A DNA stretch of 20,365 nucleotides from a virus: positions 1 to 20,365 of IMG/VR virus record IMGVR_UViG_3300030117_003590; one strand, given 5' to 3'. Below, piece by piece: positions 5,703-20,201 of the stretch. The notes below the pieces were generated by a model. It did no database searches and was not told the origin of the DNA. It worked only from the letters and a program-made list of their open reading frames with translations. The position numbers and the translations under genes are program-made. Position 1 is the first letter of the stretch. Every line of letters begins with the position of its first letter.

Positions 5703-6713
5703 TTATTTTGGTTTGTAAACATAGCCATTAGGAAACCTCTGTTGAAATTCCCATGCTGTGGCAATCATATAATCTAAATCATAATGATCAAATCTTAAAT
5801 CCATTGTTTCTCTTGCTTTTTGTACGTCAGCAACAGCAATTGCACAGTCTCCAAATCTGCGTGGAGCAAATTCATAAGGTATTTTTTTACCAGTAACTTC
5901 TTGAAATCTGTCAACAATTTCAAGAACACTATGTCCGTAACCTGTACCTAAATTGTAAACACTACATTCTGGTTGCAAATATTCAAGTGCAGCAACATGA
6001 CCATAAGCAAGATCTTCAATATGAATATAATCTCTTATTCCTGTGCCGTCGTGTGTTTCAAAATCATTTCCAAATATTTTTAATTTATCAAGTTTTCCTA
6101 TAGCAACTTGCGTTATATATGGCAAAAGATTATCTGGTATTTTCTTAGGACTATCGCCAAGATTTATGGTTGCACCAATAGGATTAAAGTATCTAAGTAA
6201 ATTAATTTGCATAGTTTGATCTGTTCTATACCAATCTTGTAAAATATTTTCTACAATTAATTTTGTTTTTCCGTAAGTACTTATGGGCTGTGTTCTGTGA
6301 GTTTCAGGTATAGGGTATTCCAATGGATTTCCATAAACAGCACATGAACTAGAAAAAATTAGTTTTTTACAACCAACTTTTTTCATTGCATTAAACAAGA
6401 TTATTGAGCAAGCAACATTATTAAAGTAATACCATAAGGGAATTTCTTCTGATTCAGGCACACACTTCCAACCTGCTAAATGAATAACAGCGTTAATATT
6501 ATATTTTTCTAATACCTCTACAACTTTAGGTAGATTAATAAGATTCTCATCAATAACAGTTACTTTACCTATAAGTCTTTCAAGCTCATGGACTGCAAAC
6601 ATAGTTGAATTAGCAAAATTATCAAGAATAATTGGTTTGTGTGCTTTTTTATAAAGTTCCGCACAAATATTTAGTCCTATGTAACCTGCACCGCCAGTAA
6701 CTAATACATTCAT
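5703..6713 (-). CDS. galE: UDP-glucose 4-epimerase
   Basis: A 336-residue short-chain dehydrogenase of the extended type, full length for GalE. The NAD-binding motif VTGGAGYIG is at residues 5-13, an IDEN (acidic) patch near 55, HLAGWKCVPES near 79-88 (the GalE AxKxVxES motif), SSSCAVYGNP at 121-130, and the catalytic YxxxK as Y147-GKT-K151. The ARRFGDCA segment near 280 fits the UDP-sugar binding loop (RRxGD). It would interconvert UDP-glucose and UDP-galactose. It overlaps the RusA gene by four bases, so it is co-translated with replication genes. In this genome it may supply the sugar nucleotide for the glycosyltransferase at 17721. Confidence 0.9.
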   Translation of the reverse strand: MNVLVTGGAGYIGLNICAELYKKAHKPIILDNFANSTMFAVHELERLIGKVTVIDENLINLPKVVEVLEKYNINAVIHLAGWKCVPESEEIPLWYYFNNVACSIILFNAMKKVGCKKLIFSSSCAVYGNPLEYPIPETHRTQPISTYGKTKLIVENILQDWYRTDQTMQINLLRYFNPIGATINLGDSPKKIPDNLLPYITQVAIGKLDKLKIFGNDFETHDGTGIRDYIHIEDLAYGHVAALEYLQPECSVYNLGTGYGHSVLEIVDRFQEVTGKKIPYEFAPRRFGDCAIAVADVQKARETMDLRFDHYDLDYMIATAWEFQQRFPNGYVYKPK

Positions 6714-11778: not shown

Positions 11779-12645
11779 TTAAATTAAGGGTTGACAGTTT
11801 TCAAAGACCTCTTTTTTTATATAAATTGATGGTCTGTTATTCCAACACTTAGTTTCATATTTCAAGTAGTTATATTTTTTCAAAGTTTGCCCAAACAATC
11901 GACTTATTTCTTTGGGTGTAAACATATTGCTTTGATCTCGGTATTGATCAAAATGCCCAGTACTGTCTGCATTAAAAGCGTTAGCACAAATAAGAATGGT
12001 TGGATTTGATATTTCTAACACCTCTTTCAAGTGTTCTACAGGTCTTTCAAAATGCTCAAAGTACTCACTAGCAAAAGCAATTTCTATACATTCTTTTTCA
12101 GTCTCACGTAAAGAATCAATTAGACTGTAAGAATAGGCTTTACTCAATGTCTCATTTAAAGTCCATTGGTAAGAATTTTTTACGTTTGTAGCAATAACTT
12201 TGTTGGGTAGTTTTTGTGTAAAAGCTACACTTGAAAACCCAATTCCGTTACCAAGATCCAAGACACTACCTTGACCTATATATTTTTTAAGATTAGGTAC
12301 AAGTTTGGTGTTAAATATGTCTTTGATATATTTTTTGGCATAATAATCAAAGCAAACCCAAACTTCAGACAAGTAAATTTTTTCTGAATAAACTTCATAG
12401 TCTGCATAACCTAGATTTCTAAGTTGGTGGTACCATCTTTTTTCTAAATCAAGTAGTTTCTGATGAGCTTTGTGGCCTTTTTTGGTGTTTTCTTTTATGC
12501 AATACAAAGTTTCTAGTGCAACTTGACCTATACTTTCTGAGTCTGTGATGTTACAGAAGTCTAGTAAATAACAAAAGTAACCAAGACTTGACCGACTTTT
12601 TAAAGCGGCCAAGTCCTGTACTGTTTTCAATTCCCCTGAAGTCAT
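11779..12645 (-). CDS. Class I SAM-dependent methyltransferase
   Basis: A 288-residue protein. The Rossmann glycine loop SVLDLGNGIGFSSVAF is at about residues 127-142, followed by VIATNVKNS (acceptor strand end) and SEYFEHFERPVEHLKEVLE near 193-211, which occupies the motif IV-post region of many small-molecule and RNA methyltransferases. No DPPY or NPPY is present, so a standard adenine-N6 or cytosine-N4 DNA methyltransferase is unlikely; no PC motif of C5 enzymes is seen either. An N-terminal helical domain of about 120 residues precedes the fold. It overlaps the DUF932 gene by four bases. The substrate is unknown. Confidence 0.75.
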   Translation of the reverse strand: MTSGELKTVQDLAALKSRSSLGYFCYLLDFCNITDSESIGQVALETLYCIKENTKKGHKAHQKLLDLEKRWYHQLRNLGYADYEVYSEKIYLSEVWVCFDYYAKKYIKDIFNTKLVPNLKKYIGQGSVLDLGNGIGFSSVAFTQKLPNKVIATNVKNSYQWTLNETLSKAYSYSLIDSLRETEKECIEIAFASEYFEHFERPVEHLKEVLEISNPTILICANAFNADSTGHFDQYRDQSNMFTPKEISRLFGQTLKKYNYLKYETKCWNNRPSIYIKKEVFENCQPLI

Positions 12646-15735: not shown

Positions 15736-16770
15736 ATGGTGGCAATTAAAAGTACTGAACTACCGATAAACGAACTAACGGAATATGAGAAAAACAGTAG
15801 AACCCATAGTGATGACCAGATTAAAGCTCTTGCAGAAGCCATAAAAAGATTTGGTTTTACTCAACCAATTATTTGTGACGAGTCAAAAGTCATACTTGCA
15901 GGTCATGGCAGATATATGGCTGCAAGGCAATTAGGATTAAAGGTCGTTCCATGTAGAGTAGTAACATCCTTAACAGACCAAGAAAAGAAAGCATACATTA
16001 TTGCTGATAATAAAATTGCAGAGATAAGCGAATGGCACGAAGGACATTTACTTGAGGAACTTAATGACCTCCAAGACTTCGATGCTGACGAAAGTTTGGC
16101 AGCATTATTTGATCTAAACACGTTTGTAAAGACAAAAGCACAGCAAATATCAATAGATAAAATAAAACCACATCCAAGAAACTATAAAATACACCCACCT
16201 GAACAACTAGAACATTTACAGCAATCAATCAAGGAAAATGGTATTTACAGGAATATACTTGTTGCCAATGATTTAACTATTCTTGCTGGTCATGGCATAG
16301 TCGAAGCCGCAAAGTTACTTGGGTTGACTTCTGTACCTATTTTGAGACTTGATCTCCCACCAAACTCCACCAAATCCATCAAAATTCTCACAGCCGATAA
16401 TGAAGTGACACATTTAGCAGAGACTAATATGCGAGAAATGAGTGAATTGTTGAAAGAATTGCTTGTTGAAGATGATTTGCTAGGAACTGGTTATGACAAA
16501 GACAAGATTGAAAACTTGCTGATGGTTTCTAGGTCAAAAGATGAAGTGAAAAAGCTAGATGATGAAGATTGGGGTAACTATATGGACTTTCAAGCTGTAA
16601 AACCTAATCCAAAACTGATAATTAACTTTGAAAACGAAAAAGATAGAGAAGATTTTGGTAAATTTATTGGTGCAGAACTAACAGACAAGACAAAATATAT
16701 ATGGTGGCCATTTAAAGAAAAGAAAAAATTTGCTCACCTTAACTACGTTGCAGAGGATTCTAATGAGTGA
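15736..16770 (+). CDS. Protein with two ParB/Sulfiredoxin-fold domains
   Basis: A 344-residue protein with two tandem ParB-like domains. Domain 1 (about residues 1-110): PINELTEYEKNSRTHS, then IKRFGFTQPIICDESKVILAGHGRYMAA with the GHGR motif at 56-59. Domain 2 (about 135-225): ISIDKIKPHPRNYKIHP, SIKENGIYRNILVANDLTILAGHGIVEAA with GHG at 185-187 but Ile in place of Arg. A C-terminal region of about 110 residues follows. The family binds nucleotides or DNA and can be a nuclease or NTPase; in phages such proteins recur beside base-modification and terminase genes. Its last eight bases overlap the radical SAM gene. Confidence 0.8.
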   Translation: MVAIKSTELPINELTEYEKNSRTHSDDQIKALAEAIKRFGFTQPIICDESKVILAGHGRYMAARQLGLKVVPCRVVTSLTDQEKKAYIIADNKIAEISEWHEGHLLEELNDLQDFDADESLAALFDLNTFVKTKAQQISIDKIKPHPRNYKIHPPEQLEHLQQSIKENGIYRNILVANDLTILAGHGIVEAAKLLGLTSVPILRLDLPPNSTKSIKILTADNEVTHLAETNMREMSELLKELLVEDDLLGTGYDKDKIENLLMVSRSKDEVKKLDDEDWGNYMDFQAVKPNPKLIINFENEKDREDFGKFIGAELTDKTKYIWWPFKEKKKFAHLNYVAEDSNE

Positions 16771-17728
16771 CTCATTCTTTGATATTAAAAACATTGAAGC
16801 TCTTTATAAAAGACCACCAGAAACTGACCCTATAGCTTGGGATGATTATATAAACAATCAAAAAGATGCAGAAACTTTTACTAGCGTTCCTGATGCACCA
16901 ATACAGATAGATTTTGAATTAAATGGTAGTTGCAATATGGCTTGTCCATTTTGTATTCATGGGATAGGTGGCGGTAGAACTGCTGAAAACATTGCATTAG
17001 ATACATATAAGAAACTCATTGATGAAGCTGCAGAAATGGGTACTAAATCGATCAAATTAAATTATATAAATGAACCATTACTAAGAAAAGACCTTGAGGA
17101 AGCAATAGCTTACGCAAGATCAAAAGGAATTATAAATATTTACTTTGTTACCAATGGTTCATTGTTAACCGAAAAAAGAATAGATGCTTTATTGCAAAGC
17201 GGTGTAACAAAAGTCTTTATCAGTATTGATGCAGCAACTGAAGAAACTTACAACAAGCAAAGAAAGAATGGTCTATACAAAAAAGTGGTTGAGAATGTGA
17301 AGAGGCTTGTAGAAAAGCGAGATCAGTTAGGAATGGAGTTTCCAAAGATAAGAGTTAGTTTTTTAAAAAATAAAATTAACGAACATGAAGCCGAACTGTT
17401 TGAACAGCAATGGATAGGCATAGTTGACGTAATAACATTTCAGACAATGAACAAAGTGCCGGGCATAGTAACTGGGTTAACTTTATTTGAAAACGAAAAG
17501 CCAAAGCCTTGTAGTTTTCCAAACAAGCAATTAGTTGTAGATAGTTCTGGCGATATACTACCCTGCTGTAAATTATGGGGCAAAGAGCTTTCTATTGGTA
17601 ATATTGCAGACATGACATTAAAAGAAGCATGGAAAAGTGGAAAAATGGAACAACTTAGGAAAGCCCACGCTGATAATAATTGGGAAATGATTTCAGCTTG
17701 CAGAAATTGTTTATACAATAATGAATAA
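16763..17728 (+). CDS. Radical SAM enzyme with SPASM domain
   Basis: A 321-residue protein. The radical SAM cluster motif CxxxCxxC is C57-NMA-C61-PF-C64, followed by GIGGGRTAENIALD, an NEP strand (LNYINEPLLRKD) and FVTNGSLLT (128-136), as in the MoaA/PqqE group. The C-terminal SPASM-type region carries C250, C268-C269, and C313/C316, ligands for extra iron-sulphur clusters. The fold reductively cleaves SAM to start radical chemistry on a peptide, sugar or base; the substrate is unknown here. ATG at 16763 is chosen because it overlaps the ParB stop. Co-transcribed with ParB and the glycosyltransferase. Confidence 0.85.
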   Translation: MSDSFFDIKNIEALYKRPPETDPIAWDDYINNQKDAETFTSVPDAPIQIDFELNGSCNMACPFCIHGIGGGRTAENIALDTYKKLIDEAAEMGTKSIKLNYINEPLLRKDLEEAIAYARSKGIINIYFVTNGSLLTEKRIDALLQSGVTKVFISIDAATEETYNKQRKNGLYKKVVENVKRLVEKRDQLGMEFPKIRVSFLKNKINEHEAELFEQQWIGIVDVITFQTMNKVPGIVTGLTLFENEKPKPCSFPNKQLVVDSSGDILPCCKLWGKELSIGNIADMTLKEAWKSGKMEQLRKAHADNNWEMISACRNCLYNNE

Positions 17729-18545
17729 AATTCTACCTAAATATCCAATATTTATACCAAGTCACAAAAGATCTGATGTTTGTCTGACTCCTAGATTATT
17801 TATGGAACATGGAGTTCCATTTAAACTTGTAGTCGATGAGACTGAGTATGAGAAGTATGAGAAGATATTCGGAACTGAAAGAATGTTACTTCTACCCTTT
17901 CTTAATGATGGAACATCTGCGCCACCTCGTTCTTGGATAACTGATTATAGTCGCAAGCAAGGAGATCATAGACATTGGCAGATAGATGACAATATAAGAT
18001 GGTTTTGTCATTTTAATGGCAGAACCAGAATACAGATACAACCAAATTTAGGTTTACGTCTTTGCGAAGAATTTTGTGACCAATGGAATAATGTTGGTAT
18101 TTATGGTCCATATTATTCTTTCTTGTCAAATGCAAGAATAACCCCTGTACCTTTCAGAAAAAATGTACATGTTTATTCGTGTATGTGTGTACTGAACAGT
18201 TTGCCTTTTAATTGGAGAGGCCCTTGGAATGAAGATGTAGATTTATGTCTGCAAACTCTTGCTCATAAATATTGCACTATTGGTACGACCTTTATAACTC
18301 AAGAAAAAATGAAAACTATGTCTATGAAAGGTGGTAATAGTACTGCTTATCAAAATCTAGATATAAGAGCATTTGGTTCTAGAGCATTACAACGCAGATG
18401 GCCTGACGTTGTAGAGCTTAAAAACAAATATGGCAGACCACACTTTCATATAAAAAACAACTGGCGTATGTTTAAAGATATACCATTAATTAAAGATCCT
18501 AATTACAAGCCAAAATCTTTTAGCATACAATTACAAGAAAAGTAA
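17721..18545 (+). CDS. TAGT-like glycosyltransferase (TET-associated glycosyltransferase family)
   Basis: A 274-residue protein. The N-terminus PIFIPSHKRSDV (9-20) and PFKLVVDETEYEKY (33-46) are the nucleotide-sugar side of a GT-A fold; HRHWQIDDNI (83-92) supplies a DxD-like motif (IDDN); VYSCMCVLNSLPFNWRGPWNEDVDLCL (151-177) has the WNED motif; MSMKGGNSTAY (200-210) and WPDVVELKNKYGR (227-239) complete the pattern. This order is the one I know for TAGT proteins, which attach sugars to oxidised pyrimidines in phage DNA. It overlaps the radical SAM gene by eight bases and ends one base before the terminase small subunit gene. Alternative: a glycosyltransferase for a virion or cell-surface target. 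Confidence 0.8.
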   Translation: MNKILPKYPIFIPSHKRSDVCLTPRLFMEHGVPFKLVVDETEYEKYEKIFGTERMLLLPFLNDGTSAPPRSWITDYSRKQGDHRHWQIDDNIRWFCHFNGRTRIQIQPNLGLRLCEEFCDQWNNVGIYGPYYSFLSNARITPVPFRKNVHVYSCMCVLNSLPFNWRGPWNEDVDLCLQTLAHKYCTIGTTFITQEKMKTMSMKGGNSTAYQNLDIRAFGSRALQRRWPDVVELKNKYGRPHFHIKNNWRMFKDIPLIKDPNYKPKSFSIQLQEK

Positions 18546-18546
18546 T

Positions 18547-18864
18547 ATGAAAAGATCTACTAAAAAAGAATTTGATGCAAGAGTCCGTAAAGTAGCAGGC
18601 TTAAAAGCACGAAATGCTAGTCGGTCTGAAATTGTGGCATATGGCACAAGGGAATGGGGGGTGAACAAAAGACAAGTTGATGTTTACTTGGCTGAGGCAA
18701 ATAAACTCATATCAATTGATTGGGAGATAGATAGAAGGCAATTTTCTGCAGATCTTTTATCACAATTAAGCACATTGGCACAAGACGCAAGAAGAAATGG
18801 TCAACCTCATGTAGCTTTGGGTTGTATAAATACTATGGCAAAGATAAGTGGTGTAGTTAAATGA
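18547..18864 (+). CDS. terS: Terminase small subunit (putative)
   Basis: A 105-residue helical protein directly upstream of the large terminase and overlapping it by four bases. The N-terminal half KEFDARVRKVAGLKARNASRSEIVAYGTREWGVNKRQVDVYLAEA has a helix-turn-helix outline (SEIVAYG...VNKRQVDVYL), the usual DNA-recognition part of small terminases. The second half is a helical oligomerisation-like segment (ADLLSQLSTLAQDARRNGQPHVALGCINTMAKI). Identity rests mainly on position and on this architecture. Confidence 0.7.
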   Translation: MKRSTKKEFDARVRKVAGLKARNASRSEIVAYGTREWGVNKRQVDVYLAEANKLISIDWEIDRRQFSADLLSQLSTLAQDARRNGQPHVALGCINTMAKISGVVK

Positions 18865-20201
18865 GCATCTTAGATATTCAAGAAGGGGAAATACTTGAAA
18901 GCGTTAGTTCATCAAATATTGACTGTGATGCAATACTAGAACAAATAAAAAGTGACTTACATCCCGGACAATTAGATTTTGTTAATGACCAAAATACTGA
19001 AATAATTGGATTATCAGCAGGTTATGGTGCAGGTAAAACTCGAAGTCTTTGTGCAAAAGCTGTACAGTTAGCTATAAGTAATCAAGGTTTCACAGGTGCA
19101 GTAATGGAACCGACTGCACCACTTATAAGAGATATTTGGCAGAATGATTTTGAAACATTTCTAGAAAATTATGGGATTCCTTATACAACAAGGCAATCTC
19201 CATTGCCTGAGTATTCTTTGCATTTACCAGATGGGGAGGCAAAGATATTATGTAGGTCGTTTGAGAATTGGTCAAGAATTATAGGTCTAAACTTAGCATG
19301 GGTTCTTGCAGATGAGATTGATACAGTAGCACCAAGCATTGCAGATCGTGCTTTTCCTCGTATTCTTGCAAGACTTCGAAGTGGGAATCAAAGACAGTTC
19401 GGTGTAGCGTCTACACCTGAAGGTTTTAGGTGGATGTGGAATACTTTTGGTAGTAATGAAGCTAAGAAAAAGACTGATAGACGATTAATAAAAATGAGAA
19501 CTTACGATAATCCACATTTACCTGCTGACTTTATTACAAGACTTGAAGAGAATTATGAGTCTGGGTTACTTCAAGCCTATTTGAATGGAGAGTTCTGTAA
19601 TATAACAACAGGGGTAGTCTACAGTCGCTTCGATAGATCTACTCATGTCATTGAAGAAAAGCCAAATATAGAAAACGAACCACTTAGAATTGGTATCGAC
19701 TTTAATATCGGGAATACTAATGCTGTAGTTGGTCTTGCTGTAGGTGATTCAATGACTATCTTTGATGAAATTAATGCTAGTTATGACACTGACACTTTGG
19801 CGAAAGAAATTAAGAACAGATATCCATTTAACAAAATTTATATCTACCCTGACGCTTCAGGCGGTAATAGAAGCACAAATGCTACAAAAACCGACATCCA
19901 AATACTTGAAAGCTACGGATTTGTTAATCAATCCGCAGCATCAAATCCACCGATAAGAGATAGAGTTAATTCTGTTCAGCGATTATTTCAAGATGGTAGA
20001 GGTAACATTAGATTAAAAATTCACAGTTCTGCAAAAAAATTAATCGAGTGTATAGAACTTCAAAGTTATACTGAAAAAGGAGACCCTGACAAAGAAGCTG
20101 GTTACGACCATATGGTAGATGCACTTGGTTACATTTGTTGGAGGTTGTTTAACCCATTACATATGGGTGCTGGTCGCAAAACTGGTGTTAGGCTTTATTA
20201 A
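18861..20201 (+). CDS. terL: Terminase large subunit
   Basis: A 446-residue protein with the full terminase set. ATPase: Walker A GYGAGKT (residues 54-60), Walker B WVLADEID with D151/E152, coupling motif GVASTPEG (181-188). Nuclease: GIDFNIGN with D280, YPDASGGN with D331, and GYDHMVDALGY with D416 and D420, the RNase H-like metal sites. The enzyme drives DNA into the prohead and cuts the concatemer. The first 30 residues form a short acidic extension before LHPGQLDFV. It is followed after about 40 bases by the portal gene. Confidence 0.95.
   Translation: MSILDIQEGEILESVSSSNIDCDAILEQIKSDLHPGQLDFVNDQNTEIIGLSAGYGAGKTRSLCAKAVQLAISNQGFTGAVMEPTAPLIRDIWQNDFETFLENYGIPYTTRQSPLPEYSLHLPDGEAKILCRSFENWSRIIGLNLAWVLADEIDTVAPSIADRAFPRILARLRSGNQRQFGVASTPEGFRWMWNTFGSNEAKKKTDRRLIKMRTYDNPHLPADFITRLEENYESGLLQAYLNGEFCNITTGVVYSRFDRSTHVIEEKPNIENEPLRIGIDFNIGNTNAVVGLAVGDSMTIFDEINASYDTDTLAKEIKNRYPFNKIYIYPDASGGNRSTNATKTDIQILESYGFVNQSAASNPPIRDRVNSVQRLFQDGRGNIRLKIHSSAKKLIECIELQSYTEKGDPDKEAGYDHMVDALGYICWRLFNPLHMGAGRKTGVRLY

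Follow-up and report, generated by a model that had tools for sequence, protein, structure and literature searches.

The TAGT-family glycosyltransferases of phages T2 and T6 glycosylate DNA (PMC13216743). There, the beta-glucosyl-hydroxymethylcytosine (HMC) alpha-glucosyltransferase (PF20691) adds a second glucose to glucosyl-HMC, with a hydroxymethylase and an alpha-glucosyltransferase being encoded in the same genome. 'Solitary' TAGTs, reported in 288 of 753 phage genomes, have been called potentially novel transferases (PMC13216743), while ParB-domain proteins are frequent fusions or neighbors of phage DNA methyltransferases (PMC12783734). Considered here is IMG/VR virus record IMGVR_UViG_3300030117_003590, a 20,365-base stretch of marine phage DNA (hereafter, the window) that is probably a fragment, and in which genes encoding a ParB protein, a BtrN-like radical S-adenosylmethionine (SAM) enzyme and a TAGT glycosyltransferase precede the terminase genes. 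These three genes form a conserved mobile block beside terminase genes. We read this block, with roughly even confidence, as a hypermodification cassette that would tailor a sugar, with phage DNA as the most likely substrate.

The TAGT of the window belongs to the same Pfam and PHROG family as its T2/T6 counterpart and shares with it the GT-A glycosyltransferase fold, a conserved Asp-Asp and a distal Asp, yet it is accompanied by ParB, radical SAM and methyltransferase partners, with no hydroxymethylase having been found. TET/JBP-centred phage hypermodification loci likewise present a TAGT gene in a phage setting, whereas TET/JBP went undetected in the window and its relatives. The CmoA-CmoX-CmoY carboxymethylcytosine system (PMC12783734) is also a phage modification locus that often includes a ParB-domain protein, but the 22 records searched contain no C5-type DNA methylase. 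In mycobacteriophage Nigel, a ParB-like gene (annotated as such, without Pfam confirmation) and a Tet_JBP-matching gene fill the same slot before terS in an overlapping layout, with a TET-like enzyme where TAGT stands in the cassette. Finally, BtrN, the 2-deoxy-scyllo-inosamine dehydrogenase of the butirosin pathway, has the CX3CX2C core and twitch cysteine spacing in common with the radical SAM protein of the window. The two are, however, only about 20% identical, the latter being phage-encoded and tied to a gene of the DNA-glycosyltransferase type; dehydrogenation of a secondary alcohol by the window protein is a prediction from its likeness to BtrN. The cassette is a real combination of known parts that is apparently undescribed so far; text searches of the literature, the coverage of which did not extend to the main TAGT-prediction paper, revealed no description of a ParB-TAGT-radical SAM unit.

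A conserved gene block beside the terminase genes

In the window, the cassette spans positions 15736-18545 of the plus strand. The gene encoding a tandem ParB/Srx-fold protein with two ParB_N domains (15736-16770) ends 8 bp into the radical SAM gene (16763-17728), as judged from the ParB stop at 16770 and the radical SAM ATG at 16763. In the same manner, the radical SAM stop at 17728 lies 8 bp into the TAGT gene (17721-18545), the ATG of which is at 17721. A single base separates the TAGT stop at 18545 from the ATG at 18547 of a putative small terminase subunit gene, terS (18547-18864, plus strand), which overlaps by 4 bp the gene for the large terminase subunit, terL (18861-20201, plus strand). 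Whereas terL is recognized by PF03237 (3.6e-07), PF17289 (1.9e-05) and phrog_2 (4.7e-39), corresponding to the Terminase_6N/6C domains of Pfam, terS is named by its position before terL, since its sole match is to an unnamed PHROG, phrog_34910 (5.5e-31). Recomputing the open reading frames (ORFs) returned the same layout, 8-base overlaps and one-base gap as had been given in a first-pass annotation of the window, with Pfam profiles matching each of the ParB-ParB, radical SAM/SPASM and TAGT labels assigned there.

To survey the neighborhoods of related genes, IMG/VR was searched first using the radical SAM protein and subsequently using its alignment, yielding 63 unique viral contigs of this clade. 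ParB and TAGT genes were found within 4.5 kb of the radical SAM gene in 49 of the 63, a count that overstates independence because many of these contigs are closely related. Among the 51 untruncated contigs, 49 contained the full trio, with only L139 and L145 lacking it despite sufficient room; of the remaining 14 contigs, 12 end near the radical SAM gene, and seven of those 12 retain TAGT. Three gene orders (ParB-radical SAM-TAGT, ParB-TAGT-radical SAM and radical SAM-ParB-TAGT) were seen, and the adjacent large terminases are of four Pfam types, namely Terminase_6, Terminase_3, TerL_ATPase/TerL_nuclease and GpA. As such, the linkage extends beyond the shared ancestry of one phage. In a phylogenetic tree, a branch with full support separated the 32 phage radical SAM sequences from the cellular ones. 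The TAGT tree was discordant with this tree, divergent TAGT subtypes being paired with a single radical SAM clade; partners have therefore been swapped and are still linked. The conserved linkage excludes a chance arrangement, and the proposal of the first-pass annotation that the three genes act as one unit was thus borne out by the neighborhoods of relatives.

The two untruncated contigs without the trio were distinct in content. L139 (2159-5966), in which ParB and TAGT are missing, has three radical SAM genes in the vicinity of tail-fibre-like genes; one of the three belongs to the clade. In L145 (4842-6083), the clade radical SAM protein bears a C-terminal Acb2/Tad1 hairpin domain (PF24729, 3.8e-12) and its gene lies beside ParB and the gene of an N6/N4 DNA methylase. 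Domains of the Acb2/Tad1 type occur in anti-defence proteins that act as sponges. In L013 (7670-8505), the TAGT sequence lies in two frames, either because the copy is broken or because of a sequencing error. Cultured phages presented no full cassette of this radical SAM clade, their radical SAM matches being distant; one such match, from Acinetobacter, was rejected as a cassette since it belongs to a pyrroloquinoline quinone (PQQ) cluster. Likewise, a contig from a Maricaulis metagenome-assembled genome (L076, 98% identical) was rejected as evidence of the host, as it is a short contig from a bin.

The three cassette proteins

The clearest assignment in the cassette is that of TAGT. The PF20691 match (1.6e-29; 103.8 bits against a cut-off of 27.5) covers positions 1-205 of the 205-position profile, and the AlphaFold2 model (predicted local distance difference test [pLDDT] score, 89) presents a GT-A fold, so that profile and fold agree on the assignment offered earlier. 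R17, D89-D90, D172 and R239 are invariant in 30 TAGT homologues, in keeping with the conserved acidic, metal-binding residues (D89, D90 and D172) expected of the fold. The full TAGT alignment nonetheless contained no stretch conserved enough for a conserved-block search. In a structure search of the viral BFVD collection, the best named matches were TAGT proteins, including one annotated as a beta-glucosyl-HMC-alpha-glucosyl-transferase, rather than the surface-polysaccharide enzymes that the first-pass annotation had raised as a counter-possibility. Among solved structures, the matches were generic GT-A enzymes, such that the fold neither proves a DNA acceptor nor assigns the protein to polysaccharides; a sequence search of the PDB with TAGT returned nothing useful.

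The radical SAM protein was matched by PF04055 (Radical_SAM; 6.7e-20) and PF13186 (SPASM; 4.3e-14), the latter region corresponding to a short, BtrN-like twitch. It contains the CX3CX2C motif and four auxiliary-cluster cysteines at the spacing seen in BtrN, which was also its best PDB sequence match (3.3e-23). Indeed, the C-terminal 77 residues of the two proteins align without gaps, so that the auxiliary-cluster cysteine spacing is identical. Residues C57, C61 and C64, as well as C250, C268, C269, C313 and C316, are invariant in 37 homologues, including those from cells. The AlphaFold2 model (pLDDT 91) was closest to SkfB (Z 22.5, root-mean-square deviation 2.8, 259 aligned residues), BlsE (21.6, 2.9, 252), MoaA (21.0, 3.2, 250) and BtrN (20.8, 3.0, 232), with the sugar-acting enzymes BlsE and DesII both among the matches. 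Because SkfB, BlsE, MoaA and BtrN are all close, structure alone leaves the substrate unfixed.

The closest cellular relatives found come from SAR11, a Rickettsiales bin, Prochlorococcus and an archaeal bin. In four loci (L078-L081), the relative lies directly after a gene for glucose-1-phosphate cytidylyltransferase, as reflected in TIGR02623 matches over the cut-off in L078 (9e-114), under it in L081 (4.5e-72) and L080 (1.4e-68), and, in L079, to a portion of a broken frame (2.8e-34). Given the BtrN match and these neighbors, a sugar or nucleotide sugar is the favored substrate. The BtrN-like enzyme encoded after the cytidylyltransferase gene in these marine bacteria and archaeal bin (L078, L079, L080 and L081) is itself uncharacterized.

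The ParB protein contains PF02195 (ParB_N) in two stretches (3.2e-18) and matches phrog_620 (1.3e-78) and phrog_498, a ParB-DNA methyltransferase family (4.1e-67). The two domains align with each other at 29% identity. Domain 1 presents a GHGR motif; in domain 2, the arginine is lost (GHG[I/V/L]) from the window protein and from each of the 14 complete two-domain relatives examined, while in some relatives (L121, L129, L138 and L144), the degenerate domain type is found alone. No ParA was seen among the named genes, although no systematic search for ParA was made.

Acceptor, target and order of steps

ParB with TAGT directly after it, ahead of the terminase genes, is also found in an Escherichia coli phage, Nocardia phage NTR1, Lactobacillus phages c5 and jlb1, and a Porphyromonas phage, with the haloarchaeal virus HHTV-2 carrying the pair some genes upstream of terL. 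Of 5,426 complete E. coli genomes, 885 contain at least 80% of the E. coli pair, the members of which are named ynaK (ParB/Srx) and 'GREB1-related' (TAGT) by the Prokaryotic Genome Annotation Pipeline (PGAP). None of the inspected examples from cultured phages or E. coli had a radical SAM gene, while one unannotated gut phage has the pair together with a distant radical SAM gene lacking a SPASM match. The radical SAM gene thus seems to have been added to a ParB-TAGT pair that is sufficient by itself, which argues against that enzyme being the maker of the acceptor. This core also offers a handle on the 'solitary' TAGTs, being present in cultured Lactobacillus phages and in E. coli genomes.

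In E. coli prophages, the pair precedes the terminase genes in L067 (5208-6921), L149 (5001-6717) and L150 (3501-4104); in L149, TAGT is intact but the ParB gene is flagged as a pseudogene. In strain C600, only ynaK and the adjacent ydaY are retained.

The first-pass annotation had noted the absence of a TET/JBP enzyme, a hydroxymethylase or a DNA methyltransferase beside the cassette. In agreement, profile searches revealed no TET/JBP (PF12851) in the window or in any module-bearing record searched and no thymidylate-synthase-type hydroxymethylase (PF00303) in 30 records, with the complete c5, HHTV-2, jlb1 and NTR1 genomes being included in both cases; for the window itself, these negatives come from a fragment. 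Nor was any C5-type DNA methylase (PF00145) or PF13640 match found in 22 records. As positive controls, nine of 14 control genomes were matched by PF00303 and 10 of 14 by PF00145, while the TET/JBP search relied on Nigel, where gene 2 (L155:776-1744), although annotated as a queuine tRNA-ribosyltransferase, gives Tet_JBP as its only Pfam match (4.3e-6, under the cut-off). The 41 kb relative G002, which starts and ends inside seemingly the same head gene and is therefore probably nearly complete, likewise contains no TET/JBP and, on reading of its ORFs, no evident hydroxylase. The acceptor is either the product of an unrecognized enzyme or a normal base, unless the target is something other than DNA.

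If the cassette does act on DNA, the ParB protein would bring the enzymes to their substrate, where TAGT would transfer a hexose, in the window phage plausibly galactose supplied via the phage GalE, to an acceptor. The radical SAM enzyme could then oxidize or epimerize a carbon of the DNA-bound sugar, much as BtrN oxidizes a secondary alcohol, the methyltransferase, where present, would cap the sugar, and the finished decoration might shield the DNA from host nucleases. The target, the protective role, this order of steps and the timing just before packaging proposed in the first-pass annotation are all inferred. DNA is favored because the T2/T6 TAGTs act on DNA (PMC13216743), because the ParB protein matches the PHROG of ParB-DNA methyltransferases, because the ParB-like and Tet_JBP-matching genes of Nigel fill the same slot before terS, and because placement before the terminase genes is constant across very different phages. 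More tentatively, at perhaps one chance in three, the ParB-TAGT core would represent DNA glycosylation without TET/JBP or hydroxymethylase, in viruses ranging from those of haloarchaea to prophages of E. coli, extended in marine phages by radical SAM-mediated oxidation or epimerization and methylation of the DNA-bound sugar, making this the first radical SAM-tailored DNA sugar. If true, phage DNA modification would come to include radical chemistry on a sugar, and sugar attachment would bypass the known hydroxymethyl route.

Several observations weigh against a DNA target. No gene found accounts for an acceptor on a base, the apparently near-complete 41 kb relative being no exception in lacking a maker of hydroxylated pyrimidines. 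The TET match of Nigel falls short of the Pfam cut-off, the GT-A fold is common to peptide and polysaccharide transferases, the structural matches tied with BtrN include peptide maturases, and the cellular radical SAM relatives sit in surface-polysaccharide clusters. The methyltransferase proposed to cap the sugar was found in few loci, in part due to contig truncation. Accordingly, glycosylation of a phage or host protein, of RNA, or of a surface glycan in superinfection exclusion is the foremost rival, albeit one that we consider rather unlikely. It draws on those polysaccharide clusters, on the missing acceptor-making enzyme and on GT-A structural matches that include peptide N-acetylgalactosamine-transferases (Z 14.0) and S-glycosyltransferases. 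The 'GREB1-related' label assigned by PGAP to the E. coli TAGT points the same way, human GREB1 having been reported to glycosylate a protein. Speaking against such a target are the constant place of the genes beside ParB and terminase genes across unrelated phages, the grouping of TAGT among phage TAGTs, one annotated as a DNA glucosyltransferase, in the viral structure search, and the ties of the ParB family to DNA-modifying enzymes elsewhere (PMC12783734).

Two further alternatives concern what the radical SAM enzyme does. That it edits a free nucleotide sugar, which TAGT then transfers, is improbable, although the cytidylyltransferase genes adjoining its cellular relatives and the nucleoside diphosphate (NDP)-sugar dehydratase/epimerase gene in the L138 module would suit this reversed order; a reading of the phage loci, made without a profile search, turned up no cytidylyltransferase. 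The pairing of both TAGT subtypes with the same radical SAM clade fits either order. Slightly less probable still is a role for the enzyme in creating the acceptor, by activation of the methyl group of thymine or another base position for TAGT. This would supply the acceptor source for which no TET/JBP or hydroxymethylase was found, but TAGT occurs without the enzyme, and so can do without it, in E. coli prophages and in c5, jlb1, NTR1, HHTV-2 and the Porphyromonas phage, and the nearest characterized and cellular relatives point to sugars. Of the two roles suggested in the first-pass annotation, editing of a sugar is therefore the one favored, given the likeness to BtrN, the CDP-glucose-gene neighbors and the existence of ParB-TAGT pairs without the enzyme. 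Lastly, that the genes are neighbors merely through co-inheritance in one phage lineage, with no joint pathway, is most improbable. The close relatedness of many of the 63 contigs speaks for it, whereas retention of the module with four terminase types and in several gene orders, the exchange of partners seen in the discordant trees and a TAGT-methyltransferase fusion in L127 speak against it.

Companion genes

A SAM-dependent methyltransferase family accompanies the cassette in 14 of the 63 loci. In the window (11779-12645, minus strand), its gene lies 3 kb upstream of the cassette on the other strand and was assigned by family alignment and its placement in relatives. The family is compact, an alignment of 11 members presenting invariant motifs. 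Its gene directly precedes ParB in L019, L032 and L033, lies between terS and terL in L013 and between the radical SAM and TAGT genes in L129, and in L127 shares with TAGT a single reading frame of 650 residues (TAGT, 70-293; methyltransferase, about 490-585). The protein matched no DNA-methylase family and gave weak, generic matches in a PDB sequence search; a small molecule or sugar would be a plausible substrate. The first-pass annotation had overlooked this methyltransferase of the module, together with the genes for NDP-sugar enzymes and the broader occurrence of the ParB-TAGT core. A DNA N6/N4-methylase was rejected as a cassette member, being detected solely in G020 and the record from Porphyromonas.

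The window also encodes a UDP-glucose 4-epimerase, GalE (5703-6713, minus strand), matching TIGR01179 over the curated cut-off (9.1e-115) and possibly supplying a sugar donor. At a distance of 9 kb and on the opposite strand, the gene has only a suggestive link to the cassette. Epimerase-family matches were likewise obtained in contigs of four relatives (G001, G002, G003 and G005), while in L138, the NDP-sugar dehydratase/epimerase gene lies directly after TAGT, inside the module.

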